Assembly (NCBI GenBank): GCA_018396755.1
Contig: JAGTQM010000009.1
Coordinates: forward strand, 1-64,000
Direction: 5' to 3'
Length of the DNA stretch: 64,000 bases
Source of the DNA: Candidatus Bathyarchaeota archaeon
GTDB lineage: Archaea; Thermoproteota; CALKCG01; B24
In this document: piece by piece, positions 5,339 to 24,413 of the stretch
Layout of the letters: each line of letters begins with the position of its first letter
Position numbering within the stretch: the first letter of the stretch is position 1
Position numbers and translations under genes: made by a program
Notes under the pieces: model-generated
The model's database searches: none
The model's input: the letters and a program-made list of their open reading frames with translations, nothing else
Told to the model about the DNA's origin: nothing

Positions 5339-5434
5339 GTCATTCCTAGAAGAGACCCTGCTTTTAATGAGGGGTTTAAAATAAAACTTAACGATGGAGA
5401 TACCCTATAGATTCTTCCTTTAGTAGCTGGATGA
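5339..5434 (+). pseudogene. Decayed ThiS/MoaD-like carrier
   Basis: Downstream of AOR the + strand reads VIPRRDPAFNEGF, then KIKLNDGDTL, an in-frame TAG (5408-5410), then ILPLVAG and TGA. This matches the C-terminal third of ThiS-like carriers such as the intact one at 10259 (VNDGDVIALLPAIAGG). It has a nonsense codon and the terminal second glycine is replaced by stop. The preceding 5116-5338 contains no gene I can support; short stretches may be more of the same remnant. The end overlaps the convergent SerK-like gene. Confidence 0.6.
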
Positions 5435-5941
5435 TAGCTGTTCAGTTCTAAGTAAGGCCAAGGGCATATTTACTTCAGGCTCTATGGCTGAAATATGCAC
5501 CATATGTCCATTCACCCTTAACATATGCTTCGAAGTTTTAGGTGGTAAAAGTTCTCCGCTGAGCCCTGCTCTGATTACTAAATTCTTAGGAAGCTGCTTG
5601 TCTTCGCTCCAAGAGAATACTACTATCTGTGGGGAGGAGTAATCTATGAGGAGACAAGGCACTCTACTGCAATCAATAAACTCTAAAGCCTTTACTCGAT
5701 GATGCCCATCGAGTATTATATGAGTTCTCTGGTCAACCACAATGGCTTTCTTTAGAAGGCCATCCGTTTTGATACTCTTCATTAAGTTATCCAATATTTT
5801 TAAGTCTATGCTTTCATGAGGTCTTAGTAACCATAGAGGCATTAATCTAAGCTTCACGATTTCCTCGTTGAAAACCATTTGTCTAGAACCATACTGCTTG
5901 TCCTTAAATCGTTTAGCTCTTTGAGCGTAGCTACGACTCAC
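5420..5941 (-). CDS. SerK-like ADP-dependent serine kinase (ParB/Srx fold)
   Basis: The 173-residue protein has a ParB-like fold with LRPHESID (about residues 38-45) and the phosphate-binding motif DGHHRVKAL (about 78-86). Both are hallmarks of SerK, the archaeal free-serine kinase that makes O-phosphoserine for cysteine synthesis, and of SbnI in staphylococci. A PPKTSKHML-type C-terminal motif is also present. It is shorter than Thermococcus SerK (about 240 residues). Start is GTG 5941. It is divergent from a cysteine desulfurase, with two copies of the palindromic operator between them. A DNA-partitioning ParB role is unlikely given this context and the short size. Confidence 0.75.
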   Translation of the reverse strand: MSRSYAQRAKRFKDKQYGSRQMVFNEEIVKLRLMPLWLLRPHESIDLKILDNLMKSIKTDGLLKKAIVVDQRTHIILDGHHRVKALEFIDCSRVPCLLIDYSSPQIVVFSWSEDKQLPKNLVIRAGLSGELLPPKTSKHMLRVNGHMVHISAIEPEVNMPLALLRTEQLSSSY

Positions 5942-6002: not shown

Positions 6003-6023
6003 AAAATCATGTAGTTGATTATC

Positions 6024-7238
6024 ATGTTAAACTCCAAGTCTATACGTAGAGATTTTCCAATACTATCCTTACGTAGGGAAGACGGTAAACCTTTAATCTA
6101 CTTAGATAACGCTGCTACAACTCTTAAACCACGTCAAGTTATAAGCGCCATAATTCGCTACTATGAGCGTTATACTGCTAATGTGCATAGAGGCTTGTAT
6201 AGGTTAGCCCAGGAAGCTACTTCCCTATACGAAAACGCCAGAGAGGCCGTTGCTAAGTTTATAAAAGCCGACTCTAGTGAAGTTGTTTTTACGAAAAATG
6301 CTACTGAAGGCGTTAATATTGTTGCTTATGGTTTAAACTGGGAGCCTGGAGATGAAGTGGTTACAACGGTTATGGAGCATCACTCAAATCTGGTACCTTG
6401 GCAAATTATACGTGATAAATTTAGAGTGAAGCTTAAATTTTTAGACATCACTGATGACGGCGATCTTAATGTAGAAGACCTTACGTCTCTTGTATCGAAA
6501 CATACTAAGTTGCTAGCTTTAAATCACGTGTCCAACGTACTTGGAACAGTAAATCCAGTTGAGAAACTTATTAAATTGGCTCATGAACATGAAGTCCCAG
6601 TTCTAATAGATGCCGCTCAGTCGGTTCCACACATTCCTATAGATGTGAGAAGGCTTAGGTGTGATTTTCTGGTTTTCAGCGGACATAAAATGCTCGGGCC
6701 TACAGGCATAGGCGTTCTCTACGTGAATAGAGATGCTTCAGATACTCTTCAACCGGCCTTTGGAGGAGGTGAAATGATAAGTAAAGTCGACTTAGAGAAG
6801 GCTGAGTGGAACGATATGCCGTGGCGTTTTGAGCCTGGTACGCCTAACGTCGCTGGAGCCGCGGGTCTCGCAGCAGCCGTTGAATACCTGGAGAAGATTG
6901 GGATGGATAATGTACGGAGGCATGAAATTCAATTAACGGATTTAGCCCTTAAAAGGCTCAGCGATTTAGAATCCGTAGTAGTTTATGGGCCTAAGAGAGC
7001 TGAGAATAGATGTGGACTCGTAGCCTTTAACGTTAAAGGTGTTAACAGCCATGATGTTGCACTTCTCTTAGACGAGCTTGAAAACATAGCCGTCAGATCA
7101 GGTCTCCATTGCGCTGAACCCCTGCATAGAAGACTTAAAGCACAGAGCTCAGTTAGAGCTTCTTTCTATATCTACAACATACTGGAGGAAGTAGAGATAC
7201 TTTGCAATACAGTAGAGAAGATAGCTGGACTATTGTAG
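6024..7238 (+). CDS. sufS: Cysteine desulfurase, SufS/CsdA type
   Basis: This PLP enzyme of 404 residues removes sulfur from cysteine as a protein persulfide for Fe-S and cofactor synthesis. The PLP lysine is in FSGHKMLGPTGIG and the catalytic cysteine in RSGLHCAEP, the class II (SufS) arrangement; VLIDAAQ and NHVSNVLGT are cofactor contacts. ATG 6024 (MLNSKSIRRDFPIL) fits the family N-terminus better than the TTG at 6015. It faces the SerK-like gene across two operator copies. That SerK and a desulfurase share a control region supports cysteine as a sulfur relay metabolite here. Confidence 0.93.
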   Translation: MLNSKSIRRDFPILSLRREDGKPLIYLDNAATTLKPRQVISAIIRYYERYTANVHRGLYRLAQEATSLYENAREAVAKFIKADSSEVVFTKNATEGVNIVAYGLNWEPGDEVVTTVMEHHSNLVPWQIIRDKFRVKLKFLDITDDGDLNVEDLTSLVSKHTKLLALNHVSNVLGTVNPVEKLIKLAHEHEVPVLIDAAQSVPHIPIDVRRLRCDFLVFSGHKMLGPTGIGVLYVNRDASDTLQPAFGGGEMISKVDLEKAEWNDMPWRFEPGTPNVAGAAGLAAAVEYLEKIGMDNVRRHEIQLTDLALKRLSDLESVVVYGPKRAENRCGLVAFNVKGVNSHDVALLLDELENIAVRSGLHCAEPLHRRLKAQSSVRASFYIYNILEEVEILCNTVEKIAGLL

Positions 7239-9025: not shown

Positions 9026-9040
9026 AATAACAATGTTATA
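9026..9040. promoter_or_regulatory. Palindromic operator, site 4
   Basis: AATAACAATGTTATA (one base from perfect symmetry) ends on the A of the ATG of the threonine-synthase-like gene. A TATA box (tttatatttt, 9008-9017) lies about 27 bp before the ATG, so the transcript is probably leaderless and the operator covers the start point. The sequence is identical to site 16 before IscS. Confidence 0.8.
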
Positions 9041-10272
9041 TGTATGCCTTAGCCCTTAAGTGTCGGAACTGTGGAGCTGAGTACGAGCTTGCACCCTTCT
9101 ATGTATGTAGAAAATGTCTAGGACCACTTGAAGTTAAATACTCCTATGAGGAGCTGAAACTTGATAAGAAGGAACTCACCAATAGGGTTAAAAGTATTTG
9201 GCGCTACAGAGAACTACTTCCAATAAATGAGCCTCTTAAATTCCTTCACATGGATGCTGGTTTCACGCCGCTTAGAAGAGCTATGCGATTGGCTGAAATC
9301 CTTGGTTTGAAGAAGCTCTATATTAAAGATGACACGGTAAATCCTACTGGATCCTTCAAAGATAGGCCAGCTTCGATAGCAGTATGCAAATCTATCGAGT
9401 TTGAGTTTAAAGCCGTGGGATGCGCTTCAACCGGTAATCTAGCGGCTGCAACAGCCTCCTATGCTGCTAAAGCCGGTATTCCATGTTATGTGTTTATCCC
9501 ATCGGATTTAGAAATGGGGAAGATCCTTCAGATAGCTTCCTACAACCCTGTAGTTATTGCAGTTAAAGACACATACGACATTGTCAATAGATTAGCTACA
9601 CAGATTTCAGAGCTACATAACATAGCGGTGGTTAACGTAAACTTAAGACCGTATTACGTAGAGGGTTCTAAAACACCGGCTTTTGAAGTCTGTGAGCAAC
9701 TTGAGTGGACTACGCCGGACTATTTCATAATACCTATGGGTAGCGGTGCCCTTTTATGTGCAATAAACAGAGGATTAAAAGAAATGGAAGTGTTAGACTT
9801 AATGAGGAATGACGTAAAGCTAGTTGGTGTTCAACCTGAAGGGTGTTCGCCCATAGTATCTGCCTTTAAAAAAGGAATGGATGACATAGTACCTATTGAA
9901 AAACCGAACACCATCGTTAAAAGTTTAGCTATAGGTGATCCTGCAGATGGAGCATATGCATTGAAAGCTTTAAGGGAAAGCGGAGGGTTCGCCGAAGCCG
10001 TTAACGATGAAGAGACTTTAGATGGTATGAGACTTTTAGCAAAAACTGAGGGTATTTTAACAGAGCCAGCAGGTGGGGTAGCAATAGCTTCTCTTAAAAA
10101 GCTTGTAGAGGATGGAAGTATACTTCCTAGTGAAACGGTCGTATGTTATATTACAGGTAGTGGTTTGAAAACATTGGAAGTTTTAGAAAGAGGAATCAAA
10201 CCTATAATTGTAGAGCCCGACTTAAATAGTATACTCGAATTATTGGGAGGGGGGAAGTATGGTGGTGGTTAA
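9040..10272 (+). CDS. Threonine synthase-like PLP enzyme
   Basis: This 410-residue fold-type II PLP enzyme resembles archaeal ThrC. It has an N-terminal zinc ribbon (CRNCG and CRKCLG, residues 8-23), the PLP lysine in NPTGSFKDRP (about residue 108), phosphate-binding SGALLC/GSGAL and the C-terminal TGSGLKT motif. ThrC makes threonine from O-phosphohomoserine. Unusually, it is controlled by the sulfur-island operator at its start codon and overlaps a ThiS-like carrier gene by 14 bp. A sulfur-transfer reaction on O-phosphohomoserine or a related phospho-amino acid is therefore an alternative to plain ThrC. Homology to the family is certain; the substrate is not. Confidence 0.8.
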   Translation: MYALALKCRNCGAEYELAPFYVCRKCLGPLEVKYSYEELKLDKKELTNRVKSIWRYRELLPINEPLKFLHMDAGFTPLRRAMRLAEILGLKKLYIKDDTVNPTGSFKDRPASIAVCKSIEFEFKAVGCASTGNLAAATASYAAKAGIPCYVFIPSDLEMGKILQIASYNPVVIAVKDTYDIVNRLATQISELHNIAVVNVNLRPYYVEGSKTPAFEVCEQLEWTTPDYFIIPMGSGALLCAINRGLKEMEVLDLMRNDVKLVGVQPEGCSPIVSAFKKGMDDIVPIEKPNTIVKSLAIGDPADGAYALKALRESGGFAEAVNDEETLDGMRLLAKTEGILTEPAGGVAIASLKKLVEDGSILPSETVVCYITGSGLKTLEVLERGIKPIIVEPDLNSILELLGGGKYGGG

Positions 10273-10534
10273 AGTTTTCATATCATCTACTTTACTGGAA
10301 GATGCTTCTAGTAAAAAGTTAAGTTTAGATGTTGAAACAGTTAATGATGTTCTGACGAGGCTTCTGGAAATAGTTGGAGATAAGTTCAGGGGTAAAATAT
10401 ATGAGGGGGAAGACCTAAGCCCTCGTATTGTTATATTGGTGAATAACAGAAATGTTAGATTTATGAATGGACTTAATACAAAGGTTAACGACGGTGACGT
10501 CATTGCACTTCTCCCAGCTATCGCAGGCGGCTAA
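10259..10534 (+). CDS. ThiS-like sulfur carrier
   Basis: This 91-residue beta-grasp protein ends LLPAIAGG, the diglycine end used for thiocarboxylate formation. It begins inside the last codons of the PLP enzyme gene, so the two are translationally coupled. It is a candidate for the CysO-like carrier of this locus, activated by the E1 at 15364. CysO in Mycobacterium donates thiocarboxylate sulfur to a phosphoserine-dependent synthase; here the nearest gene partner is the ThrC-like protein. The 240 bp downstream (10535-10775) contain no gene I can support. Confidence 0.8.
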   Translation: MVVVKVFISSTLLEDASSKKLSLDVETVNDVLTRLLEIVGDKFRGKIYEGEDLSPRIVILVNNRNVRFMNGLNTKVNDGDVIALLPAIAGG

Positions 10535-11021: not shown

Positions 11022-11044
11022 ACCAGCTTACCACTTTAAACTTA

Positions 11045-11059
11045 TATGACATTGTTATA
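11045..11059. promoter_or_regulatory. Palindromic operator, site 5
   Basis: TATGACATTGTTATA differs from the perfect palindrome at one position. It lies 24 bp upstream of the small membrane protein on the minus strand and about 215 bp upstream of the ThiI paralogue on the plus strand. Confidence 0.7.
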
Positions 11060-11274
11060 TAAACTTAATCACCAATACTAGAAGATCTCACCTCATCGAA
11101 TGAAAGATATGTTCTATGCTACTTTGTTGTTTAATTCCTAACCTTGTAGTATAGTAGAGGAGGTTTCATATTTCTTTGTAAACTTCTTGACATGAAGTCT
11201 ACACAACCCTTAACGTAGCCATCCATATGTTAAATAATAACATTTTTAAATTCTTCCGCAAAACCCTTTGATGG

Positions 11275-12501: not shown

Positions 12502-12518
12502 GTACACGAAATTGATAC

Positions 12519-13067
12519 TTACGGTTTCACCCTTATTTCCAATGATGAAAGATCTATCTCTATGAGATCTTCCATCAAAGAAGATGGTAGTTCTGGTGGT
12601 GGATAATTCGTGCATGCACCGCTTATCCCCTTTAATGATTCGACATCCCATCTAGTATGGCAAGCATCGCAGTCTAAATATTTTTCTTGGATAATGTGAA
12701 AACTGAATGAGCCGCAGGGTTCACAAACTCTTATGCCTGATATGATTTTTCGCGATTGTGTTAGAATGATTACTAAAGGCAGATATTCTCCATCCTTATA
12801 CAAGCTGAGTGGTATTGTACGACCTTTATATGTTATTTCATTTAACCGGTTTTCAATCTTTAGATCAAGAAAGACAAGTCGTTGTTCTTTAACAAAACTG
12901 AGGGGGACGTACACTTTAGTTCCGTCTGGCGATATGGTTGGGCTTAAGTAAAAGCTACCTGCTCTTATCGACGACTGAAAGTAAAGTAACGCAATTGCCA
13001 CTAGGAACATTGCTGCCAGTAGTATAATATAGGAAGCTCTAAATCTCAAACATCCTTCCTCCCTCAT
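12519..13067 (-). CDS. DUF2318-like membrane-anchored CxxC protein
   Basis: This 182-residue protein has one N-terminal membrane anchor (about 10-28) and an exported domain with CEPCG and CDACHTRWD motifs, plus a later cysteine in GACTNYPPP. The pattern fits the DUF2318 domain found beside FtsX-type permeases in bacterial iron-acquisition operons such as the Campylobacter p19 locus. It begins within the end of the ATPase gene (28-bp overlap) and is last in a three-gene operon with permease and ATPase. It probably binds a metal or redox cofactor outside the cell. The operon is preceded by operator site 6. Confidence 0.65.
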   Translation of the reverse strand: MREEGCLRFRASYIILLAAMFLVAIALLYFQSSIRAGSFYLSPTISPDGTKVYVPLSFVKEQRLVFLDLKIENRLNEITYKGRTIPLSLYKDGEYLPLVIILTQSRKIISGIRVCEPCGSFSFHIIQEKYLDCDACHTRWDVESLKGISGACTNYPPPELPSSLMEDLIEIDLSSLEIRVKP

Positions 13068-13743
13068 TTAAGTATCTATCTAAAATTACACGTCCATCAA
13101 TTATCTCCACAATTCTATCGGTGAGTTTAGCTAGCCTCAAATTATGTGTTACGATTATTATAGTAAGTCTATCTATTTCATGTAGTTCACGTAGAATTTG
13201 CATAATTTCACTACCAGTTTTCTGATCCAAACTTCCAGTCGGCTCATCCGCTAAGAGAATTGCTGGGTTATTCACTATGCCTCTTGCAACAGCAACTCTC
13301 TGCTGCTCACCTACACTCAACTCAATTGCTTTGTGAAAAGCCTTTTTCGCCAATCCAACTTTATCAAGAACGTCTCTTGCCCTCCTCTGCTGTTCATCGG
13401 AAGATACACCAGCTAAGAATAGTGGAAGCATAACGTTTTCTAATGCTGTTAGATATGGTATTAGTTCAAAGGTTTGGAAAATAAAACCTACGTTTTCACG
13501 TCTAAATTTAGCTCGCTCCTTTGAAGTCAATCTGTAAATTGAAACCCCATTTATTACTACATCGCCTTTCGTTGGAGTTAATAGCCCCCCGATAGTGTAG
13601 AGTAGCGTCGATTTTCCACTCCCACTTGGCCCTACTATAGCTAAGAAGCCCCCCGTCTCAACTTCTAAGTTTACGTCGTTTAAAGCGAAAACTCGGTTAT
13701 CTCCTATTTCGTAAACTTTTGTAACTTCTTTCAACAGAATCAT
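13039..13743 (-). CDS. ABC transporter ATPase, LolD/MacB type
   Basis: This 234-residue ATPase pairs with FtsX-family permeases. It has Walker A GPSGSGKST (about 38-46), Walker B LLADEPTGSLD and H-loop VTHN. The signature is LSVGEQQRVAVARG, with valine in place of the usual glycine (LSGGE). It follows the permease gene by 5 bp and overlaps the DUF2318-like gene. Such ATPases drive mechanical work or export rather than receptor-dependent import. The substrate is unknown; the iron-linked partner gene and sulfur-type operator suggest metal or redox homeostasis. Confidence 0.88.
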   Translation of the reverse strand: MILLKEVTKVYEIGDNRVFALNDVNLEVETGGFLAIVGPSGSGKSTLLYTIGGLLTPTKGDVVINGVSIYRLTSKERAKFRRENVGFIFQTFELIPYLTALENVMLPLFLAGVSSDEQQRRARDVLDKVGLAKKAFHKAIELSVGEQQRVAVARGIVNNPAILLADEPTGSLDQKTGSEIMQILRELHEIDRLTIIIVTHNLRLAKLTDRIVEIIDGRVILDRYLNEGGRMFEI

Positions 13744-13748
13744 CGTGC

Positions 13749-14894
13749 TTACACCGTCTTTAAAGCTTTAACTGGATCTATTTTGGATGCCCTCCATGCA
13801 GGGTAAAAACTTGCAATTAGACAAGATGAAATTGATAAAGTGATAGTTAACGGGACAATATAAATAGGTACGTCTTCTAGATTTATTGTAGCTCCCATTA
13901 TAAGAGGCCCCAATGACATGGATGATATTAAACCTGTTACGATGCCAACAAATCCACTGATTAAACCCAAAATTACGGATTCTAAGAAAAATATTTTATA
14001 CAGATGACTACTATCAGCCCCCAGTGAAATAAGCACTCCGATCTCTCTTATTCGCTCATGGATGGAGGCTAACATTGTATTCATGATTCCGATGCAACCA
14101 GTTATGAGAATAGTAAAAGCTAGTAAAAGTGAAAAGTTAACCGTCTGTTTAACGATTTTCGCCCTTAATTCAACCGCTTGCTTAATAGGTGTCGCTTTAA
14201 CATTAGGCATAACCTCCATTATCTGCTGCGCAATAACTTCAACTGGACAGTCTTTGCAAAGAGCCCCGACTTCAATTACGTGGACTTTATTGGTGAGGTT
14301 AAGCAGCATCTGAGCCGTGTGTAGTGGCAAGAATACGGAATAGTCATCAATAGACCCTGTTTCACTCAAAAAGCCAACTACGGTGAGGGATATGTTATTG
14401 ATTTGAGCAATTGAGCCTAGAGTTAAACCAAGTGTTGACTTTATGGTTGAACCTAGAATTATTTCAAATTCACCTCGAGGTAATGAGCCGGTTATATTCC
14501 ACCATCTTTTAAGTTGGATTTCACTCTCTGGAATTATTCCAACGAGGAGAAGATTGTTACCTCTATATTGTACTTGACCGTAAACCTTCGGAGATATCAC
14601 CCTAATATTTTGCCTGTTTGGAATTGTATAGATCTTCTCTACGTAATTTTCTGGAATTACAACATCTCCTACAACAATGCCTCCATATGGTATGTTTATT
14701 AACTGTGCTTTAGGAGTTATCACTATATTTGGCCCATACTTTTCCACTTCATCGCCGATCTGTATTTCCATAGAATGGGAAACGACAAACGTTGAAGTGA
14801 TTATGGTGATGGCAAGGATCAATCCTATAGAGTTAAGAATCGAACGCCCTTTTCTTCTCGAAAGACTCTTGAAAACTAGAGTTGCTGTCCGCAC
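13749..14894 (-). CDS. FtsX/MacB-family ABC permease
   Basis: This 381-residue permease has one N-terminal membrane helix (about 20-40), a large extracellular MacB-like domain (about 45-255) and three C-terminal helices, ending with ASFYPAWRASKIDPVKAL, the family terminus. It is the first gene of the operon with the ATPase and DUF2318-like protein. Operator site 6 lies 33 bp upstream of the start. Similar permeases accompany DUF2318 in iron or copper uptake loci; no substrate can be read from sequence. Confidence 0.85.
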   Translation of the reverse strand: MRTATLVFKSLSRRKGRSILNSIGLILAITIITSTFVVSHSMEIQIGDEVEKYGPNIVITPKAQLINIPYGGIVVGDVVIPENYVEKIYTIPNRQNIRVISPKVYGQVQYRGNNLLLVGIIPESEIQLKRWWNITGSLPRGEFEIILGSTIKSTLGLTLGSIAQINNISLTVVGFLSETGSIDDYSVFLPLHTAQMLLNLTNKVHVIEVGALCKDCPVEVIAQQIMEVMPNVKATPIKQAVELRAKIVKQTVNFSLLLAFTILITGCIGIMNTMLASIHERIREIGVLISLGADSSHLYKIFFLESVILGLISGFVGIVTGLISSMSLGPLIMGATINLEDVPIYIVPLTITLSISSCLIASFYPAWRASKIDPVKALKTV

Positions 14895-14926
14895 GCGAAA
14901 CCACCGTTGGGGAAGGCGTTTACGAA

Positions 14927-14941
14927 TATAACAATGTAATA
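14927..14941. promoter_or_regulatory. Palindromic operator, site 6
   Basis: TATAACAATGTAATA has one mismatch to the consensus. It lies upstream of the FtsX/ATPase/DUF2318 operon on the minus strand and brings that transporter into the regulon. Confidence 0.72.
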
Positions 14942-15349
14942 TTCTGATTTATAAGTTTAACTTAACTTCAGGTTCCTGAAGTCCTCCTCAATAAGCCAAG
15001 TACCTCAATTTAAAATAAACTCTTAAAGTAAAACTAAGTCATATATGATCAAAAGCTAGCTCTTAATGTTCTAAGAGGTGTAGAGAGAGTTAAGTTAACA
15101 ATGGCACATTCTTAAATCTAAACTGTCGCCTGGTGGGAATTTGATCAAAGCGAAGTCTAGAGCCTCATAGACGTTAAAATTTATTGCTTTATGGCTTAAT
15201 TTTGACTTTCCATACACCATGCTTCTATCTTCGTCTCAAATATGTGGAGTTTATCTTCGAAAAGCCTCGCTTTAAAATGCTACGATAAGATGAAAAAGCG
15301 AAGCTAGCAATTAAACTACAAAGCTAAATTTATATAACCCCGTCATAGT
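14942..15349. other. Intergenic stretch, no gene seen
   Basis: About 400 AT-rich bases between the divergent transporter and E1 genes. I see no reading frame with family resemblance. The right end holds the TATA box (tttatata, about 15329-15336) of the E1 gene. Confidence 0.5.
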
Positions 15350-15364
15350 TGTAACAGTGTAATA
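15350..15364. promoter_or_regulatory. Palindromic operator, site 7
   Basis: TGTAACAGTGTAATA ends on the A of the ATG of the E1 gene. The TATA box is about 28 bp before the ATG, so the operator covers the probable start of a leaderless transcript. Confidence 0.7.
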
Positions 15365-16419
15365 TGTCTATGAGTATTCTCTTTAAACCTGAGGAGTATT
15401 ATCGTCGGCAGATAGCTTTGCCGGAAATGGGCTTTAAAGGGCAGAAGAACTTAAGAAGTTCCAGTGTCGCCATCGTTGGTGTAGGAGGCCTTGGGTCGGT
15501 TTCAGCTTTATACTTGGCATTAGCTGGTGTTGGAAGAATCAAGCTTATAGACCAAGATGTCGTAGAATTTAGCAATCTCCATAGGCAGATACTATACACT
15601 ATTTACGACTGCAGACTACCGAAGGCTGAGGTTGCCGCTAAGAGGATCAGAGATGTAAATCCTGAGGTTGAGGTTGAACCGATTCCAGAAAATCTAAATG
15701 AGTTGAACGCTGAACGTCTTCTCAGAAACGTAGACTGCGTTGTGGACGGTTTAGATAACATGAAGACTAGATATTTGATAAACAGAGTATGCGTTAAACA
15801 CAGAATACCATATGTTTTCGGAGGTGCTATAGGACTTGAGGGGAATGTCTCCGTATTTAAACCTCCTGAGACTCCATGCCTCGAATGCATTCTACCGGGG
15901 CTGAATGATGCTCATCTACCAACTTGTGAGACGAGGGGCGTTATAGGAGCGACTCCGGGTATAGTAGGAGCCATACAGACTATGGAAACCATAAAATTAC
16001 TCATCGGTGTAGGAGGGGGGCTTTTAGGAAAACTTTTAGTCTGCGACTTCAAAACGATGAGCTTCGACATCTTAAAACTTGGCAAGAACCCTGGATGTAT
16101 GGTCTGCGGAGAAGGCATTCAAAAGCCCGTCAAATACGAAGAAAAATTGATTTGGCTTTGTGGAAGCGATACTGTAAATGTAAATCCATCCAAACCAATG
16201 AACATAGACTTGGTTAAAGCACACGATATTTTAAGCAACAATTTTAAGATACTAGCTAAATCGTCACTCGCTCTTACGATATCCCTCCCAAAAGGAGTTG
16301 AGGCAACAATCTTCAGAAACGGTAGAATGCTCATAAGGAATGTTAAAGATGAGCAAACAGCCGTTAAAACCTATGAAATTGTCATTCAGTATATAACTCA
16401 GTCCAGTTCTCCCGTATAA
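15364..16419 (+). CDS. E1-like ThiF/MoeB adenylyltransferase
   Basis: This 351-residue enzyme adenylates the C-terminal glycine of ThiS/MoaD-like carriers. The ATP site GVGGLGSVSALYLA is at about 38-51, followed by NLHRQILY and DGLDNMKTRYLIN. Structural zinc cysteines are CLEC and CMVC; LPTCETRGVIGATPG carries the catalytic-type cysteine. About 100 extra C-terminal residues follow the zinc site (from VNPSKPMN), forming a small alpha-beta tail that MoeB/ThiF usually lack. The gene overlaps the convergent SerA gene by 38 bp. It is the only E1 in the window and could serve all three carriers. Confidence 0.92.
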   Translation: MSMSILFKPEEYYRRQIALPEMGFKGQKNLRSSSVAIVGVGGLGSVSALYLALAGVGRIKLIDQDVVEFSNLHRQILYTIYDCRLPKAEVAAKRIRDVNPEVEVEPIPENLNELNAERLLRNVDCVVDGLDNMKTRYLINRVCVKHRIPYVFGGAIGLEGNVSVFKPPETPCLECILPGLNDAHLPTCETRGVIGATPGIVGAIQTMETIKLLIGVGGGLLGKLLVCDFKTMSFDILKLGKNPGCMVCGEGIQKPVKYEEKLIWLCGSDTVNVNPSKPMNIDLVKAHDILSNNFKILAKSSLALTISLPKGVEATIFRNGRMLIRNVKDEQTAVKTYEIVIQYITQSSSPV

Positions 16420-17320
16420 AAGACAAAATCTCTCCAGCTATGGTAATAGCTATCTTCCTCTGAGCCTCTAAAGTGCTTCCTCCAATATGAGGAGTTAATA
16501 TGACGTTGTCAAGCTTCAGCAAAGGGCTGTTTGATGGAGGCTCCTCCGTAAAAACATCTAGTGCTGCACCCCCCAGCCATCTCGAAGATAAAGCTATGTA
16601 AAGGGCTTTTTCGTCTACAACAGCTCCTCTACTAGTGTTTACCAAGTATGCACCCCTCTTCATCAAAGAAAGTTCTTCGGACTTTATCATATTCCTCGTT
16701 TCATCTGTCAGCGGCACATGAATAGATACGAAATCGCTCATCTTCAGAAGCTTACTTAAATCATCTACAAGCTCTACTCCTATCTGTTCGGCCTTAGTTT
16801 TAGGAATGTATGGATCGTAAGCAATTATCTGCATACCAAACGTCTTGGCCATTACGGCGACCCTGACCCCTATCCGCCCAAGCCCAATAATGCCTAAAAC
16901 TTTCCCTTTCAACTCTACACCCGTAGTCCAAGTCCCCCTCCACCCGCCGGATTTCACGTGACGATCCAATGAAGGTATTTTCCTTGCCAAGCTTATGATC
17001 AACCCTATAGTAAGCTCTGCGACTGAATCTACTGGGGCATCTGGAGCATTTATCACTTTTATGCCTTTTTGCTCAGCATGAACAATATCGATGTTATCTA
17101 AGCCACTTCCAGCTCTCGCTATGAACCTTAATCTCGGCGCCTGATCAATGATTTCTCGCGTAACTTTAACATCGCCTCGGACTACTAGTATGTCTGCATT
17201 TTTAATTTCCTCGGTTAACTTCTCAGACAATATTTCTTTAAGCTCTGCATAAGGTTTTAAAATTTCGTAAAATTCTTCATCCACACCGCCAACTATGAGG
17301 ACGATAGGTTTTTCCATCAC
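16382..17320 (-). CDS. serA: D-3-phosphoglycerate dehydrogenase (short form)
   Basis: This 312-residue NAD-dependent 2-hydroxyacid dehydrogenase opens phosphoserine/serine synthesis from 3-phosphoglycerate. Catalytic Arg, Glu and His are seen in ARAGSGLDNID, FTEEPP and LTPHIGGST; the NAD motif is GIIGLGRIGVRVA. It lacks the C-terminal ACT regulatory domain, so serine feedback is unlikely. Start is GTG 17320 or ATG 17317, just below operator site 8. It is divergent from the cysteine synthase fusion, so precursor and cysteine synthesis are controlled from one 74-bp region. Confidence 0.88.
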   Translation of the reverse strand: MMEKPIVLIVGGVDEEFYEILKPYAELKEILSEKLTEEIKNADILVVRGDVKVTREIIDQAPRLRFIARAGSGLDNIDIVHAEQKGIKVINAPDAPVDSVAELTIGLIISLARKIPSLDRHVKSGGWRGTWTTGVELKGKVLGIIGLGRIGVRVAVMAKTFGMQIIAYDPYIPKTKAEQIGVELVDDLSKLLKMSDFVSIHVPLTDETRNMIKSEELSLMKRGAYLVNTSRGAVVDEKALYIALSSRWLGGAALDVFTEEPPSNSPLLKLDNVILTPHIGGSTLEAQRKIAITIAGEILSFIRENWTELYTE

Positions 17321-17323
17321 TAT

Positions 17324-17338
17324 TATAACGACGTTATA
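17324..17338. promoter_or_regulatory. Palindromic operator, site 8
   Basis: TATAACGACGTTATA is a perfect palindrome, identical to site 15 before NadA. It lies 3 bp from the GTG start of SerA on the minus strand. Confidence 0.82.
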
Positions 17339-17382
17339 ACTTTATAAATTTTTTCGAAAAGTTTTTAAGGTAGCGCTGTTGA

Positions 17383-17397
17383 TATAACACTGTTATG
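17383..17397. promoter_or_regulatory. Palindromic operator, site 9
   Basis: TATAACACTGTTATG includes the ATG start of the cysteine synthase fusion as its last three bases. A TATA box (tttttaagg, about 17362-17370) lies 25-30 bp upstream, as expected for a leaderless gene whose start point is covered by a repressor. Confidence 0.82.
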
Positions 17398-18714
17398 ACA
17401 AACATTCAGACTACATACGTAGGTGTGAACGAAGTAAAACAGCCAGTGAACGTCGATTTAAGAGAAGCAATTCCTGTATATAGGCGGATTCTTAATGAGA
17501 AAAGCGTAAGAGAACTTATTGTAGTTGAAAAGACGACTATGGTTGTTTTAAGAGGACATGGGGTTTTAGAAGCTCTGAGATTGCTTTCAGCTGATAAAGT
17601 TCCAGTGTTTCAAGTTGATTCGTCTAAAGTTAAAGTGAAAAGTCTGCAACCAGGTTTAAGACCTATAACGTTAGAGGCTGTCATTAAAGCTGGAGTTGAA
17701 GGCCCAAGGCTTCCGTATAAGAGCTTCGACGTTCAGATTGAAGAGGAGATTCCCAGCATAGAAGTAGATTTAAATGAGTTGAATGTTTGGAAGAGGGTAG
17801 GAGGAAGACGACTTAGAGTATATGATAGTACTATGGAGTTACTCTATGAAGACTGGCCGACGCCTCTAGTTAAACTACGGTTCTTCTCCTCAGAGGATAG
17901 GAGCGTTTGGGCTAAGCTTGAAGGAGCTAATCCATACAGTAACAGCGTTAAAGATAGAATAGGGTGGTCTATGATTATGAGTGCTCTTGAAGAGGGGAAA
18001 CTGGGCGATATATTGTATGAAGCTACTTCAACTAATACTGGAATAGCCATAACAGCTATAGCAAACCTCCTAGGGAGGAAGACAAGACTGTTTATACCAA
18101 AAACCATTCAGAAGGCTAGCGACGTTTTTCTTAAGGTTCTGGGAGCAGATGTTGTAAGAGTACCTGTAGGTTTGACCGTGGAAGCTATAGAAGAAGTTGA
18201 TGCCAAGTCTAAATCCGAGGGGGCTACTCACTTAAATCAGTTTGAGAATGATGCGAATTTCAAAGTACATCTGAAGTATACAGCTAAGGAGATAGATGAG
18301 CAACTTGAAAGCCGTGGGCTTAAACCAGACTGCATCGTAGGAGGCTTAGGAACCTCAGGACATATGAGCGCTATATCCATTTACTTCAAAAGTAAATACG
18401 GAGGTTCTGTGAAAATAGTAGGCGTTCAACCTGCTCCCAATGAGGTGATTCCTGGAATACGTAGAATTGAAACAGGTATGAAATGGATTCACTGGGTAGA
18501 TTTTGACCAAGTTATAGACGTTAAAAGGAATGAGGCTATAGAAGGTGCTTTAACCGTCGCTAGAAAAGAGGGGCTCTTAATAGGCTTAAGTGCTGGAGCA
18601 GTTTTCCACGCATTCACTAAGATCGCTGAAGACGGGGGGGTTTATGTCTTGGTATTTCCAGACACTGGCTACAAATATGTAGAACAATTTGAAGAATACT
18701 TTCATAGTGTGTAA
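17395..18714 (+). CDS. ParB/SerK-like domain fused to cysteine (O-phosphoserine) synthase
   Basis: In this 439-residue protein, residues 1-135 resemble a ParB/SerK fold; where SerK has DGHHRVKAL, this has RGHGVLEALRLL, so the phosphate motif is degraded. Residues 140-439 are a cysteine synthase: PLP lysine in NSVKDRIGW, substrate loop ATSTNTGIAIT, phosphate cup GGLGTSGH and SAGAVFHA. The TSTNTG loop resembles archaeal O-phosphoserine sulfhydrylase. Clustering with SerA, SerK, E1 and a JAMM peptidase favours phosphoserine as acceptor and either sulfide or a carrier thiocarboxylate as donor. The N-terminal domain may channel or sense phosphoserine. Confidence 0.82.
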   Translation: MTNIQTTYVGVNEVKQPVNVDLREAIPVYRRILNEKSVRELIVVEKTTMVVLRGHGVLEALRLLSADKVPVFQVDSSKVKVKSLQPGLRPITLEAVIKAGVEGPRLPYKSFDVQIEEEIPSIEVDLNELNVWKRVGGRRLRVYDSTMELLYEDWPTPLVKLRFFSSEDRSVWAKLEGANPYSNSVKDRIGWSMIMSALEEGKLGDILYEATSTNTGIAITAIANLLGRKTRLFIPKTIQKASDVFLKVLGADVVRVPVGLTVEAIEEVDAKSKSEGATHLNQFENDANFKVHLKYTAKEIDEQLESRGLKPDCIVGGLGTSGHMSAISIYFKSKYGGSVKIVGVQPAPNEVIPGIRRIETGMKWIHWVDFDQVIDVKRNEAIEGALTVARKEGLLIGLSAGAVFHAFTKIAEDGGVYVLVFPDTGYKYVEQFEEYFHSV

Positions 18715-18724
18715 CAATGTTAAA
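18710..18724. promoter_or_regulatory. Palindromic operator-like match, site 10 (weak)
   Basis: TGTAACAATGTTAAA spans the stop of the cysteine synthase and the ATG of the JAMM gene. The core TAACAATGTTA fits the consensus, but the two genes are only 2 bp apart and there is no clear TATA box. It may be an internal site or chance. Confidence 0.35.
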
Positions 18725-19157
18725 GATCGCTAAAGCCGTTTTTAAACAGTTGGTAGAAGCGTGTAAAGAGGAGTTCCCCAGAGAAGCTTGTGGGCTTATA
18801 GCTGGAGTCAAAGGGAATGAGGATTCATTCGCTATAAAGATCTATCCTTTAAGAAACATAGCTAAATCGTCATTCACCTATGAGACAGATGCGGAAGAAG
18901 TGTATAATGCTTTCATCAACATAGAAGAAACTGGATTAAGTATCCTAGGTGTATATCATAGCCATCCATTTAGCCAAGCTGAGCCATCTGAATTGGATAG
19001 GAGAAACGCTTTCTACCCAGGCATGATACACGTGATCGTTTCACTCATAGGAGATGTTGCTGACGTTAAAGCCTACTTATGGAGCGGGGAGGAGTTCACC
19101 GAATACCCCATCTCTATAGAGGAAGAACAGGCGAAGCTAGTACAAAGTTTTATATAA
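18717..19157 (+). CDS. JAMM/Mov34 metallopeptidase, Mec-like
   Basis: This 146-residue zinc peptidase has the full JAMM motif: glutamate in PREACGLIAG, then YHSHPFSQAEPSELDRR with the two histidines, serine and aspartate. In Mycobacterium, Mec cleaves cysteine from the CysO C-terminus; other archaeal JAMM proteins deconjugate SAMPs. The gene starts 2 bp after the cysteine synthase fusion, the same pairing as CysM with Mec. Release of cysteine (or another adduct) from a ThiS-like carrier is therefore the leading hypothesis. Intact motif and short length fit the single-domain class. Confidence 0.88.
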   Translation: MLKIAKAVFKQLVEACKEEFPREACGLIAGVKGNEDSFAIKIYPLRNIAKSSFTYETDAEEVYNAFINIEETGLSILGVYHSHPFSQAEPSELDRRNAFYPGMIHVIVSLIGDVADVKAYLWSGEEFTEYPISIEEEQAKLVQSFI

Positions 19158-19167
19158 CTGAGTAATA
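19153..19167. promoter_or_regulatory. Palindromic operator, site 11 (regulator promoter)
   Basis: TATAACTGAGTAATA keeps the TATAAC half and six of seven symmetric pairs, with a different centre. It lies 19 bp before the ATG of the HTH regulator, partly within the end of the JAMM gene, and would allow autoregulation. Confidence 0.55.
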
Positions 19168-19186
19168 TTAATATTTTTGAAGTCTT

Positions 19187-19522
19187 ATGCATTTAAAACC
19201 TCCATGTGAATTATCCGTTAAATTTATCCTACCAGCCATAAGACTTCTCATAGCTAAAAAACTCATAGAAAAATACAACTTCACTCAAACTTCAGCTGCT
19301 AAAGCTCTAGGTACTACACAGGCTGCTATAAGCCATTATATGCACTCGAAACGCGGATGGAGGCTTGCTGAGAGGTTGATGAAGATGGAGGATGTTAGAG
19401 AGTTTATAGAAAAATCTGCAGAGAAAATCGCTACGTCTGAAATACATAACGTAGATGTTTTAGACGTATGTCAACTTTGCAAAATAACTCAGAAGTATGT
19501 AAGTGAATTTGAAAAATCATAA
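19187..19522 (+). CDS. HTH transcriptional regulator with CxxC, candidate sulfur-island repressor
   Basis: This 111-residue protein has an XRE-like helix-turn-helix at about 25-65 (FTQTSAAKALGTTQAAISHY) and a C-terminal segment with DVCQLCKIT, a CxxC suited to bind Fe-S, zinc or act as a thiol switch. It resembles small archaeal regulators grouped as COG2522. It lies in the middle of the operator-bearing genes, 29 bp after the JAMM gene, and has its own operator copy (site 11). It is the only regulator I find in the island, so it is the best candidate for binding the palindrome. This link is inferred. Confidence 0.78.
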   Translation: MHLKPPCELSVKFILPAIRLLIAKKLIEKYNFTQTSAAKALGTTQAAISHYMHSKRGWRLAERLMKMEDVREFIEKSAEKIATSEIHNVDVLDVCQLCKITQKYVSEFEKS

Positions 19523-19537
19523 TTTCCAAAGCTGAAT

Positions 19538-19936
19538 TTAAAAAACTACGAGTGATATAGCTCTCATTGGACATGCATCTACGCATAAACCGCAAGCTAC
19601 ACATTTATCTTCATCAAAGATTATAGAGTAATCACCGGACATTTTAATCACATCAACTGGACAAAGAGACAGACATTCACCACAATGTATGCATCTATCT
19701 AAATCAACAGATATTGTCCTTTTAATTACGATTTCAACCCCTTTACTTTTAAAAGCTTCAATTACATTCTCTGCAAAAACATCTGGTATTTCTACGAGCA
19801 TTTCCCCACCTTTCTCGTGAATAGAAGCCTTTAAAATGTTTAATTTAACCCCTTTCTCAAGTATTACAGTTGAAGTTATGGGTTCATTCATAAGTCCGCC
19901 GTGGAACCTTAATAATACTTTAACCATATCTATCAC
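19538..19936 (-). CDS. NIL-domain ferredoxin of homocysteine synthesis
   Basis: This 132-residue protein has an N-terminal NIL domain (about 5-75) and two 4Fe-4S motifs (CIHCGECLSLCP and CVACGLCVDACP). It matches the methanogen MA1822 type, which with the DUF39 protein forms homocysteine from aspartate semialdehyde and sulfide, providing reduction or sulfur mobilisation. It follows the HcyBio gene by 2 bp, so they are one operon under site 12. Its end faces the regulator gene convergently. Confidence 0.88.
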   Translation of the reverse strand: MIDMVKVLLRFHGGLMNEPITSTVILEKGVKLNILKASIHEKGGEMLVEIPDVFAENVIEAFKSKGVEIVIKRTISVDLDRCIHCGECLSLCPVDVIKMSGDYSIIFDEDKCVACGLCVDACPMRAISLVVF

Positions 19937-19938
19937 CT

Positions 19939-21120
19939 TTAAACAATCCTTTTCATAATAGCTTTTTCTTTCATAGGTTTAAATACCGAGCCTCTAGGCA
20001 AGTTTTCAACAGGCTTAGATAAGTAGAAGAACCCCTCTTCAATCCATTTCTTCAAGGTTTCAGCTACTTCTATAGCTCCTTTAAGACTTGATAATGAGCT
20101 GACTTTCACAGTTTTCCCCAGTATTTCTACTTTCCCAGATTTAAGTTCTCTATAAGAGACTTCTCTTAGAATTGGTCTAGTCCTTCTTGGAATACCATAA
20201 TCTAATATTTTAACGGTTATCTGCTCATCTGTTACTGCAGCGCTTTTAGCGATTTTTAAGTTCAGTATAGGCATTGGTATACCTAGACCGACATAAATAG
20301 ATGTCCCATAACGGGTAATGGCAGCCCCTCTAACAAATTTGGGATCCATATCCATACAGTTTCCTTTGACCATTAAAGTTCCCATTTGATTCCCCGGATC
20401 ATGTTGAGTACCTTCACCTATGACATAGCCTTTTGCTCCCCCTAGAAATATCCTAGTTCCAATACCTATCGTTTCGTAGTCAGGGTCGTTCATTAATGGG
20501 TTTAATTCACCAGCTCCTGAGAAAGTAGCATTACCGTAATGCGGTAATAGTTTACCCATGTAAGTATATATTGTGACATCCCTGCTATTAGTTGCGCAAA
20601 CGTACTTCTGGTAAGCATTTCTAAAATTCAACATGTAAAATTGATTTAAATCATACTTAGTCAATGTAGTTTCAAGCCTAGTCCTAGGGTAACAGTCTGT
20701 TCCATAAGCCGTAGCCTTCAACTCAACTTCTTTTCCGCTTATCAAGTCTTCTATAACGTGGCCTCCCCCGTATTCGAATGGTTTGACTTCAGACATCTGA
20801 GTAGCACCTATGTATAGGTCCACTGCTGCTCCCGGGTGGCAAACAGAGACGTCATTAATCCATGCTTTATCTATCTTAATAGGTGGGTCTGAATGACCTA
20901 AATTTATCACAGCACCAGAAGAGCACATAGCCCCAAAGGTTCCCGTTGTTACAACGTCAACTTCTTTGGCAACTGCTTCAACACCTTTATCTTTGACTAG
21001 GCGTTTAAATTCATCAGCCCTTAGAACTACGACATCTCCCTTTCTAATCTTCTCATTTATTTCTTCGTATGTCCTTATGGGTTTCTCCAACTCATAATTA
21101 CTTGTCAAGGTTTTCACCAA
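19939..21120 (-). CDS. Homocysteine biosynthesis protein HcyBio (DUF39)
   Basis: This 393-residue DUF39 protein is the aspartate-semialdehyde sulfurtransferase of the MA1821 type. The conserved cysteine is in GAMCSSGAVINLGHSDPP (about residues 63-80), and ATAYGTDCYPR and GTQHDPGNQMGT are family motifs. Unlike some homologues it has no CBS domains. Start is TTG 21120 or GTG 21117. Operator site 12 overlaps the start. It is operonic with the NIL-ferredoxin and provides the methionine/homocysteine branch of the sulfur island. Confidence 0.9.
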   Translation of the reverse strand: MVKTLTSNYELEKPIRTYEEINEKIRKGDVVVLRADEFKRLVKDKGVEAVAKEVDVVTTGTFGAMCSSGAVINLGHSDPPIKIDKAWINDVSVCHPGAAVDLYIGATQMSEVKPFEYGGGHVIEDLISGKEVELKATAYGTDCYPRTRLETTLTKYDLNQFYMLNFRNAYQKYVCATNSRDVTIYTYMGKLLPHYGNATFSGAGELNPLMNDPDYETIGIGTRIFLGGAKGYVIGEGTQHDPGNQMGTLMVKGNCMDMDPKFVRGAAITRYGTSIYVGLGIPMPILNLKIAKSAAVTDEQITVKILDYGIPRRTRPILREVSYRELKSGKVEILGKTVKVSSLSSLKGAIEVAETLKKWIEEGFFYLSKPVENLPRGSVFKPMKEKAIMKRIV

Positions 21121-21132
21121 AACAGTGTTATA
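21118..21132. promoter_or_regulatory. Palindromic operator, site 12
   Basis: CAAAACAGTGTTATA keeps the strong GTGTTATA half. It overlaps the start codon of HcyBio on the minus strand, with AT-rich TATA candidates (about 21138-21150) upstream. Confidence 0.65.
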
Positions 21133-21195
21133 TCATTAATTTAAATGTATTTAAATATTTTTCTCAGAAATATGATTCATAGTGATATTTCACAT

Positions 21196-21981
21196 TTAAG
21201 TTAATGTTAGCCTCTCAGGATGAGTGTATATGTTGCATCTAGACCCCCTCATAAACCCTATAAGTGTTACTCCCAATTGTGTAGCTAACGATACTCCAAG
21301 AGATGTTGGAGCAGATATCGAGGCAAGTATCGGTATGCCTACTCTAGCGACTTTTAAAACGATCTCAGATGAAAGCCTCCCGCTACATACCAAGAGCGTA
21401 TGGTTAAAGTACGGGGATTCCCTTAGAGCATAGGCTCCAACAGCCTTATCCACGGCATTATGCCGTCCTACGTCTTCACATAAAATTTTCATCCCCATAG
21501 TATCAGCGATAAGTGCCGCATGAACTCCTCCAGTCCTCCTATATAAGGATGCATCTAAGTTGAGTTTCCCTACGAGTTTAAAAATTTCGTTAAGAGGCCA
21601 TTGAATGTTTGATTGCACTCTCTTAGCTGGAAGATTTTCAACGAGTTCTTCTGAAGAATGCCCACACATGGTTTTAACTGTATCGATTACCTTAGCGTTA
21701 TGTAACTTTATTCTTTCCTCAACCGTTGTCGAAGCCTCTATATGAGCTTCGCTATCCTTCACATCTATCCTGATTACTTCTTCTAGATTTTTTATAAATC
21801 CCTCAGTTATAAGATGACCTATGGCTAATTCCACAAGTTCTTGAGGGGTTACGTAAAGTACTCTTAATCGTTTTCCATTAATGTAAATGGCTATTGGTGT
21901 CTCTACGGCTACTTCATCCTTAACTTCATCTATACGTCCATGTATGAACCTTGAAATAGCGTATTTGACTGATACCTTCAT
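21196..21981 (-). CDS. fdhD: FdhD-family sulfur transfer protein
   Basis: This 261-residue FdhD/NarQ protein moves sulfur from a desulfurase to the Mo/W-bis-pterin cofactor of formate dehydrogenase. The sulfur-carrying motif is TMCGHSSEE with one cysteine, whereas E. coli has CxxC. GVHAALI, CEDVGRHNAVDKAVG and SGRLSSEIV are family signatures. It follows LarE by 15 bp, forming an operon under site 13. No formate dehydrogenase is in the window, so the client may be elsewhere or may be the AOR-type enzyme. Confidence 0.9.
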   Translation of the reverse strand: MKVSVKYAISRFIHGRIDEVKDEVAVETPIAIYINGKRLRVLYVTPQELVELAIGHLITEGFIKNLEEVIRIDVKDSEAHIEASTTVEERIKLHNAKVIDTVKTMCGHSSEELVENLPAKRVQSNIQWPLNEIFKLVGKLNLDASLYRRTGGVHAALIADTMGMKILCEDVGRHNAVDKAVGAYALRESPYFNHTLLVCSGRLSSEIVLKVARVGIPILASISAPTSLGVSLATQLGVTLIGFMRGSRCNIYTHPERLTLT

Positions 21982-21996
21982 AATCTCTCCGACTTA

Positions 21997-22869
21997 TCAT
22001 GGTTTATCTTTTCTAAAAACAGTTTCGTTAAGGCTTCCGGATTTATATCCGTAAAGATCTAAAGTCACGTATATATATCCTAGACTTCTAAGTTTACTCC
22101 AAATACTATTCATGACATTCTCATCGAAAAAGACTTTTCTCTCATCTCTACCGACTTCGATTCTAGCGATATAGCCATGGTCTCTAACTCGAACTTGTCT
22201 AACTCCAGTAAGTTGTCTTATATAAGTTTCTGCTTCCGAAATTCTTCTAAGTCTTTCGTAGGTTACTTCTACACCATATGGAATTCTTGAAGCTAAACAA
22301 GCCATAGAAGGCTTATCTGCCGTAGGAAGCCCTACGATTTTCGAAATCAACCGTACATCACTTTTAGTGAGACCTACTTCAGCTAGCGGACTTCTCACTC
22401 CAAATTCCTTTAAAGCTTTGAGACCAGGTCTAAAATCTCGATGGTCGTCAGCATTAGAGCCGTCAACTATCACTTTTAAACCCTCTTCTTCGGCTATTTT
22501 ACTCAACACCTTTAACAGAGACCTTTTGCAGTAGTAGCATCTATCTGGAGGATTCTTAACAAACTCGCCATCGCTTAATTCATCGACTTTAACTATTCTA
22601 TGTTTAATCCCTATGAAACGTGCAATTTTAATAGCGTCTTCAAGTTCACCCGGTGGAAGAGTTAGCGAATCCGCTGTAACGGCTAAACTCTTATCATCTA
22701 AAGCTTTGTAAGTAACATATGCCACAAGAGTGCTATCAACTCCACCAGAGAAAGCGACCAACACGCTATTCTTATCATTGAACCAATTTATGAGCTTCTC
22801 CAATAGAGCTTGAGCCTTTAAGACGGATTCATTTTTACATTCTAAGTGTTTAGGCTTTCCAGTCATCAC
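21997..22869 (-). CDS. larE: LarE-like ATP-dependent sulfur transferase (PP-loop)
   Basis: This 290-residue PP-loop protein has VAFSGGVDSTLVAY near residue 40, a CYYCKRSL motif and MACLASRIPYG, which holds the cysteine used as sacrificial sulfur donor, or cluster ligand, in LarE. LarE makes the nickel-pincer cofactor of lactate racemase, but no larB/larC genes are here. It is operonic with FdhD under the sulfur operator, so a more general sulfur-insertion role is plausible. Start is GTG 22869 or ATG 22866. Confidence 0.85.
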   Translation of the reverse strand: MMTGKPKHLECKNESVLKAQALLEKLINWFNDKNSVLVAFSGGVDSTLVAYVTYKALDDKSLAVTADSLTLPPGELEDAIKIARFIGIKHRIVKVDELSDGEFVKNPPDRCYYCKRSLLKVLSKIAEEEGLKVIVDGSNADDHRDFRPGLKALKEFGVRSPLAEVGLTKSDVRLISKIVGLPTADKPSMACLASRIPYGVEVTYERLRRISEAETYIRQLTGVRQVRVRDHGYIARIEVGRDERKVFFDENVMNSIWSKLRSLGYIYVTLDLYGYKSGSLNETVFRKDKP

Positions 22870-22878
22870 ATATCAAAT

Positions 22879-22893
22879 TATAACGCTGTTTTA
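22879..22893. promoter_or_regulatory. Palindromic operator, site 13
   Basis: TATAACGCTGTTTTA is identical to site 2. It lies 9 bp before the LarE GTG start and 65 bp before the divergent CobW gene. Confidence 0.75.
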
Positions 22894-22957
22894 TAAAGTT
22901 ACTCAATCTATGTAAAGAAAATATTAACATAACGTTTAAAAGACTTTCTAAGCAATA

Positions 22958-24082: not shown

Positions 24083-24114
24083 GTCGTAGACATTCGGGAT
24101 GGAATAAAGACTTA

Positions 24115-24129: not shown

Positions 24130-24143
24130 TTTTTATATGGATA

Positions 24144-24413
24144 GTGATGAGAGTTCTATTTAAGTTCTACGGAAACCTCGTGAACTACTTTGGAGAGAGA
24201 GCAAGCATAGAACTCAACGAGGGAGTTACGGTTCAAGAGGCACTTATGAAGCTTAAACTCATAGATGGAACTCCAGCATATGCAAGTATTTTCATAAACA
24301 CTCACCTACAAATGCTTGTAGTGTTCGTATCAGGCAAACATGCGAACTTAAACACTAAGTTGAGCGGGGAAAGCGTAGAAGTTACGGTTCTTCCACCAAT
24401 AATGGGTGGTTAA
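24144..24413 (+). CDS. ThiS/MoaD-like sulfur carrier
   Basis: This 89-residue beta-grasp carrier ends TVLPPIMGG, ready for adenylation and thiocarboxylate formation. The N-terminal strand is MRVLFKFYGNLVNYFGERASIEL. Start is GTG 24144 or ATG 24147. It has its own operator and sits between the CobW GTPase and NadA. It is the second carrier in the regulon, after 10259. Which of them serves thiamin, cysteine or molybdopterin cannot be told from sequence. Confidence 0.82.
   Translation: MMRVLFKFYGNLVNYFGERASIELNEGVTVQEALMKLKLIDGTPAYASIFINTHLQMLVVFVSGKHANLNTKLSGESVEVTVLPPIMGG

Follow-up and report, generated by a model that had tools for sequence, protein, structure and literature searches.

An archaeal O-phosphoserine sulfhydrylase possibly coupled to a ubiquitin-like sulfur-carrier module

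A 64,000-nucleotide stretch of an archaeal metagenome-assembled genome (MAG), here called the window, carries an O-phosphoserine sulfhydrylase (OPSS) gene along with genes for an E1-like adenylyltransferase, a JAMM metallopeptidase, and ubiquitin-like (Ubl) sulfur carriers. The window comprises positions 1 to 64,000 of contig JAGTQM010000009.1 (C28; assembly GCA_018396755.1) of a 1.98 Mb MAG that is 89% complete; its nearest kin are, within the genus, an uncultured archaeon bin (CALKCG01) and, within the family, Candidatus Bathyarchaeota archaeon B24 (LUCB01). An earlier note on this DNA had proposed a carrier-bound cysteine route like the CysO/CysM/Mec pathway of Mycobacterium. We tentatively favor, at somewhat below even confidence, a form of this reading in which the OPSS of the window lineage and some relatives is coupled to a CysO/CysM/Mec-like Ubl carrier module. 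An ancestral E1-OPSS-JAMM block, a Ubl-OPSS fusion in Bathyarchaeota SKYB89, an OPSS-E1 pair in a further relative (G014), and CysM-JAMM-CysO-like operons speak for such a route, but obligatory use of the route is not supported, as OPSS survives the loss of E1 and JAMM. No other single account covers the fusion, the block, and the recurrent pairings as well as carrier use by OPSS does, although we stop just short of calling it probable. The data suggest, without proving it, that cysteine can be built on a carrier protein in archaea of this kind, as it is in tuberculosis bacteria.

The window synthase is an Aeropyrum-type OPSS. Its best match in the PDB is the Aeropyrum pernix enzyme (1wkv, 214 bits; the best other protein scored 123), and an AlphaFold model (mean predicted local distance difference test score, pLDDT, 84) aligns with A. 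pernix OPSS (PDB 1wkv, 3vsc, 6l0p) over about 450 columns, N-terminal domain included. All 13 relatives compared have the pyridoxal phosphate (PLP) lysine and the phosphate-binding arginine that corresponds to R297. In sequence, full-length fold, PLP lysine, and R297, the enzyme thus agrees with the A. pernix type throughout, which fits the earlier call of a phosphoserine-type synthase. Archaeal ADP-dependent serine kinase, SerK (PMC5120207), supplies O-phosphoserine, and its gene adjoins OPSS in many genera. The N-terminal domain of the window OPSS is SerK-like, but a degenerate copy in which DGHHR is replaced by RGHGV; DGHHR is missing throughout our alignment (A1) too, and with this catalytic motif lost we reject the domain as an active kinase. 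In Bathyarchaeia, by contrast, OPSS has an intact SerK domain as its N-terminal fusion partner (L229, L230, L234, L237, L238, L239, L241), which supports phosphoserine as the OPSS substrate and likely makes a bifunctional serine-to-cysteine enzyme. These long reading frames were considered as further Ubl fusions and rejected, the extra domain being SerK.

The open reading frames (ORFs) of E1, SerA, OPSS, and JAMM lie where the earlier note had placed them (Table 1), with SerA on the opposite strand, and the JAMM gene, its motif intact, does begin 2 bp after the OPSS stop. The window E1 matches the ThiF family (265 bits), has no rhodanese domain, and falls in one clade with E1s that adjoin OPSS or CysM in SKYB89 (L251), G014, and G135. 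Relatives carry traces of a common block. The sister genomes G001 and G002 both have an intact OPSS preceded by a perfect operator (described below). On its upstream side, OPSS directly adjoins a remnant of the E1 C-terminal domain, broken by stops, and on its downstream side a JAMM remnant, whose start overlaps the OPSS stop (ATGA). As the two genomes retain different parts of JAMM, its decay went on separately. In G014, a window-type E1 begins 16 bp downstream of OPSS. Together with the gene orders of G003 and G014, these remnants show that the window family once had the order E1, OPSS, JAMM, and a helix-turn-helix (HTH) gene. Between the window and the G003 copy, the JAMM is under purifying selection, with a ratio of nonsynonymous to synonymous substitution (dN/dS) of about 0.15 (YN00; dS near saturation).

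G003, a MAG of the same genus, holds two island versions with complementary decay. On contig C133 (L083), OPSS, FdhD, and LarE are intact, SerA is deleted, and JAMM is cleanly deleted to its last ~30 bp; on contig C17 (L153), JAMM, SerA, SufS, and the CobW-ThiSb pair are intact and OPSS is in fragments. Possibly, two strains share this bin.

In SKYB89 (JANXET010000006.1), a 539-aa ORF (1991-3610) encodes a ThiS/MoaD domain followed by OPSS. The Ubl part spans residues 1-92 and ends in IPAVSGG (PF02597, 58 bits), and the OPSS part is 66% identical to the window OPSS. ThrC (733-1986) precedes the fusion, and E1 (TTG 3615 to 4673; 4 bp after OPSS), SufS (to 5934), and a JAMM-like ORF (6113-6508) follow it on the same strand. 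The G014 OPSS, 82% identical to that of SKYB89, retains the N-terminal vestige VIFIPAVSGG; the presence of this Ubl tail in a separately assembled MAG argues that the SKYB89 fusion is real, while G014 itself, with the tail only, was rejected as a full fusion. The nearest relatives of the fused Ubl are ThrC-linked Ubls (G020, 51%; G006, 47%; window ThiSa, 34%), and by this kinship ThiSa is the best candidate partner of the window OPSS. Among the matches listed in a search of 398 genomes, there was no second Ubl-OPSS fusion; rarer ones may exist beyond these genomes.

Cysteine synthases pair with E1 or JAMM elsewhere as well. E1 lies within about 5 kb of OPSS at 13 of about 78 loci, in several families, where 1-2% would be expected per locus (rough binomial p below 1e-8, ignoring shared ancestry). 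G135 has the order ThrC-Ubl-E1-CysM (in two frames)-E1 (window type)-SerK, with SufS, IscU, and IscS behind. In Caldarchaeum-like genomes of the same phylum (family f15: G021, G049, G234), a CysM-like synthase gene overlaps the JAMM gene and is followed by a ThiS-like gene, a true CysM-JAMM-CysO-like operon. Their ThiS carries an AbrB/MraZ-like domain fused behind its GG (L191 9946-10488, L192 8834-9376, L193 8104-8646), so that a cut after GG would release the carrier and a possible DNA-binding protein; the free ThiS of G133 has CysO-type proteins (4n6e, 3dwg) as its best PDB relatives. Further CysM-JAMM pairs lie in G014 (synthase broken), G028, G035, G181, G070, and G169. A broader claim would be that several archaeal lineages (the window family, SKYB89, the Caldarchaeum-like group) run protein-carrier cysteine synthesis, assembled at least twice, as OPSS with a threonine-synthase-linked Ubl and as the CysM-JAMM-CysO-like operon, that one thiocarboxylated carrier may feed both OPSS and the ThrC homologue, and that JAMM both matures fused or extended carriers and releases the amino acid; as a whole, we consider this unlikely. 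Separately, JAMM-E1 pairs occur without a cysteine synthase in family f13 (L164, L166, L195, L196), adjoined by proline-synthesis genes in L164 and L166.

Both carriers named in the earlier note do end in GG, but they are not the only ones, the window genome encoding at least seven ThiS/MoaD-like carriers. Neither proved to be of CysO type: the best PDB match of ThiSa is Ta0895, with CysO aligned only over the last 36 residues, and ThiSb had no PDB match. ThiSb has no special tie to OPSS; the CobW-ThiSb pair is kept in G003. Within about 13 kb, contig C4 of G000 (48000-67900; L184) bears another four ThiS/MoaD-like carriers together with a MoaE-like gene and second E1 and NadA genes.

Gene content, homology, the ancestral block, the fusion ORF, and the shared operators are what we observed directly, and from them we infer each chemical step of the route. 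SufS or IscS would supply persulfide sulfur; SufS adjoins E1 in L251 and G332. E1 would then adenylate the GG end of a carrier, most probably ThiSa, leading to the thiocarboxylate. With O-phosphoserine supplied by SerA or SerK, OPSS would form aminoacrylate, the target of attack by the carrier thiocarboxylate, and the JAMM peptidase would release cysteine and carrier; in SKYB89, JAMM may also have to free the carrier from OPSS. The carrier route would be an optional layer, as OPSS evidently runs without E1 and JAMM, presumably on free sulfide.

A number of findings weigh against carrier coupling. In G001 and G002, E1 and JAMM are both pseudogenes, yet OPSS is intact, and in G003 the JAMM beside the intact OPSS was lost, though the bin keeps JAMM elsewhere. 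Synthase and peptidase have therefore not been kept together in evolution, and gene-set conservation, which the earlier note offered as a check, extends to the ancestral block and to pairings in several families but breaks down in these three genomes. As OPSS outlived E1 and JAMM, it cannot depend strictly on them. Across the phylum, JAMM is absent from the vicinity of most OPSS, and most archaeal OPSS have neither E1 nor JAMM; adjacency of JAMM and OPSS, found among A. pernix-type OPSS only in the window family and SKYB89, was rejected as a general archaeal rule. In relatives, window-type E1 is also found beside ThiI, Thi4, and FdhD. No window-type ThrC turned up in G001 or G002, and the window carriers are more SAMP/MoaD-like than CysO-like. 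The Ubl-OPSS fusion is known from one MAG, in which the JAMM frame lacks a usual start codon (ATG, GTG, or TTG) ahead of the catalytic Glu region and may contain a frameshift or use another start codon. A. pernix OPSS reportedly uses free sulfide (Mino and Ishikawa 2003, cited in PMC5120207).

Shared control had been read in the earlier note as the mark of a dedicated cysteine set. The operator, TATAACNNNGTTATA, occurs 25 times in the window at ≤2 mismatches (5.4 expected) and at 24 places in the whole genome at ≤1 mismatch (6 for a reversed control), half of them within window 5.9-25.5 kb; about 14 sites lie at 5954-25489. Sites also precede SufS, ThiI, the ABC exporter, SerA, HTH, the DUF39 homocysteine gene, NadA, and IscS, and the operator controls a whole sulfur regulon. 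Because it is common to so many of these genes, shared control does not single out the proposed cysteine set, and we rejected it as a sign of a dedicated pathway. E1, SerA, and OPSS are not one transcription unit, and the sites attributed to the two carriers, although real, sit before the upstream genes ThrC (site 9026) and CobW (site 22879), the carriers having none of their own.

Given that the whole island is under the operator and that OPSS outlasts the module, the main rival explanation is nearly as likely, if still short of probable: OPSS would work on O-phosphoserine and free sulfide, E1 and carriers would relay sulfur in general (to the tungsten cofactor of the adjacent AOR and, with ThiI, to tRNA thiolation), JAMM would be a housekeeping desampylase, and their proximity would come only from the shared sulfur regulon. 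The reach of the operator over SufS, ThiI, DUF39, NadA, IscS, and others fits this account, as do AOR-MoaD and ThiI in the same island, the survival of OPSS after E1 and JAMM loss, the prevalence of OPSS without JAMM, and the best NCBIfam match of the JAMM, haloarchaeal desampylase NF041370, which at 91.9 bits is below the equivalog cut-off of 130. It leaves unexplained the Ubl domain fused to OPSS, the overlapping OPSS and JAMM genes, and the recurrence, in separate families, of cysteine synthases paired with E1 or JAMM.

An improbable alternative is protein modification, in which E1 and carrier would attach to OPSS and/or the ThrC homologue in a SAMP-like conjugation that controls activity, with JAMM removing the tag. 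HvJAMM1 and SAMP1 reversibly regulate molybdopterin synthase in Haloferax (PMC4443979), Ubl genes adjoin likely targets (Makarova and Koonin 2010), and the ThrC-Ubl-E1 gene order is highly conserved. However, modification does not require SufS in the operon, and an OPSS with a Ubl at its N-terminus and the GG inside the chain is no isopeptide conjugate.

In 29 of the 30 best Ubl loci, which span many families, the gene immediately upstream of Ubl is the ThrC homologue, with E1 mostly next or, in Nitrosopumilus-like genomes, fused to Ubl (window 9040-10534; L309-L338; L218, L219, L221, L099); the archaeal Ubl survey of 2010 does not speak of threonine synthase. Three further ThrC homologues are encoded in the window genome. 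Window-type ThrC was not found in G003 either (72% complete, which makes absence weak evidence), and G001, G002, and G003 also lack an intact window-type E1; these joint absences are in line with ThrC homologue, carrier, E1, and JAMM forming a module that can be lost as a unit and that has OPSS among its clients. On the same observations, the carrier could chiefly serve the ThrC homologue (e.g., for homocysteine from O-phosphohomoserine, as HcyS/HcyD/HcyF do for Wolinella methionine), leaving OPSS a bystander, but this is very improbable. Against it, the two Nitrosopumilus-like genomes tested show one ThrC match each at threshold, probably the real threonine synthase there, and the window has the NIL-ferredoxin/DUF39 homocysteine route. 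The Wolinella Hcy carrier needs C-terminal trimming, and the Wolinella synthase belongs to a different PLP family.

Carrier coupling would make the window system partly familiar. Like CysO/CysM/Mec and MoeZ of Mycobacterium tuberculosis (PMC3227635), it combines a GG-ended Ubl carrier and a JAMM peptidase with a candidate carrier-activating E1 and a putative O-phosphoserine-type synthase; unlike there, the synthase is an A. pernix-type OPSS and not CysM, the E1 lacks a rhodanese domain, the carrier is SAMP/MoaD-like and in a different operon (fused to OPSS in SKYB89), and the module is dispensable in close relatives. Bacterial ThiS-E1-JAB-cysteine synthase operons of classes 4c and 4d hold the same functional set in one neighborhood (Iyer, Burroughs and Aravind 2006, PMC1779556), but that survey lists bacteria only, and class 4c has E1-rhodanese fusions. 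A. pernix OPSS, homologous over the full length, is known as a sulfide user, and we know of no JAMM linkage reported for it. It is partly supported that the window system is an archaeal variant of these known bacterial-type operons and the mycobacterial pathway. The HvJAMM1/SAMP system of Haloferax (PMC4443979) likewise joins JAMM, E1, and a SAMP1-like carrier, whereas the window JAMM misses the desampylase cut-off (92 vs 130 bits) and sits behind a cysteine synthase. The HcyS/HcyD/HcyF protein-thiocarboxylate route of Wolinella succinogenes (cited in PMC5764234) has carrier, E1, and JAMM serving a sulfur amino acid, there homocysteine.

Makarova and Koonin (2010) mention archaeal E1-cysteine synthase links in passing and found Jab rarely tied to Ubl genes, so the E1 link is not new for archaea; in the literature searched, with most subscription papers outside reach, we met no archaeal CysO/Mec, JAMM-cysteine synthase, or Ubl-OPSS fusion link. 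The oxygen and heat robustness that the earlier note suggested for the route is unsupported. The way in which many archaea make cysteine is still open (PMC5120207). If true, the carrier-bound route would bring Ubl proteins, E1, and JAMM into central sulfur metabolism, in lineages close to where the eukaryotic ubiquitin system arose, and give archaeal carriers a concrete client besides tRNA thiolation and the Mo/W cofactor. With the Ubl-OPSS fusion, the idea becomes directly testable with one recombinant protein.

Table 1. Features of the window that bear on the proposed route.
Feature	Position	Strand	Remarks
SerK-like ADP-dependent serine kinase	5420..5941	-	PHE and DGHHR motifs; possible O-phosphoserine source
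SufS-type cysteine desulfurase	6015..7238	+	operator-controlled; candidate sulfur donor to E1
ThrC, threonine-synthase homologue	9040..10272	+	one of four in genome; operator at 9026
ThiSa, ThiS/MoaD/SAMP1-like carrier	10259..10534	+	ends IAGG; Pfam ThiS; overlaps ThrC by 14 bp
Two operator-like inverted repeats 5' of E1	15333-15347, 15350-15364		operator scan
E1-like adenylyltransferase (ThiF/MoeB family)	15364..16419	+	TBP-like C-terminal domain; candidate carrier-activating enzyme
SerA-like D-3-phosphoglycerate dehydrogenase (PGDH family)	16382..17320	-	convergent with E1, 3' ends overlapping 38 bp
Operators between SerA and OPSS	17324-17338, 17383-17397		operator scan; perfect and one mismatch, respectively
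OPSS, ParB/SerK-like N-terminal domain and PLP synthase	17395..18714	+	PLP Lys186; R356 = A. pernix R297
JAMM/Prok-JAB metallopeptidase	18717..19157	+	Prok-JAB 67 bits; HxHx7Sx2D intact
HTH regulator	19187..19522	+	111 aa; C-terminal CxxC; homologues often adjoin OPSS, SufS, IscSU in phylum
NIL-ferredoxin/DUF39 homocysteine route	19538-21120		
CobW	22958-24082		
ThiSb, divergent ThiS-like carrier	24144..24413	+	ends IMGG; Pfam ThiS; behind CobW

The sulfur island spans window 1-29 kb. It encodes a tungstate ABC transporter, MoaD-AOR, the SerK-like protein (49 bits against NF053625, below cut-off), SufS, Thi4, ThrC-ThiSa, ThiI, and an ABC exporter, followed by E1, SerA, OPSS, JAMM, HTH, NIL-ferredoxin and DUF39 (homocysteine), FdhD, LarE, CobW-ThiSb, NadA, IscS, and IscU; names outside Pfam and NCBIfam matches are our own assignments. 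With homologues beside OPSS, SufS, and IscSU in several families, the HTH protein is the natural candidate regulator of the operator. Adjoining the island, a TnpB-like ORF and a MerR-type serine resolvase (32239-34015) resemble an IS607-family element.

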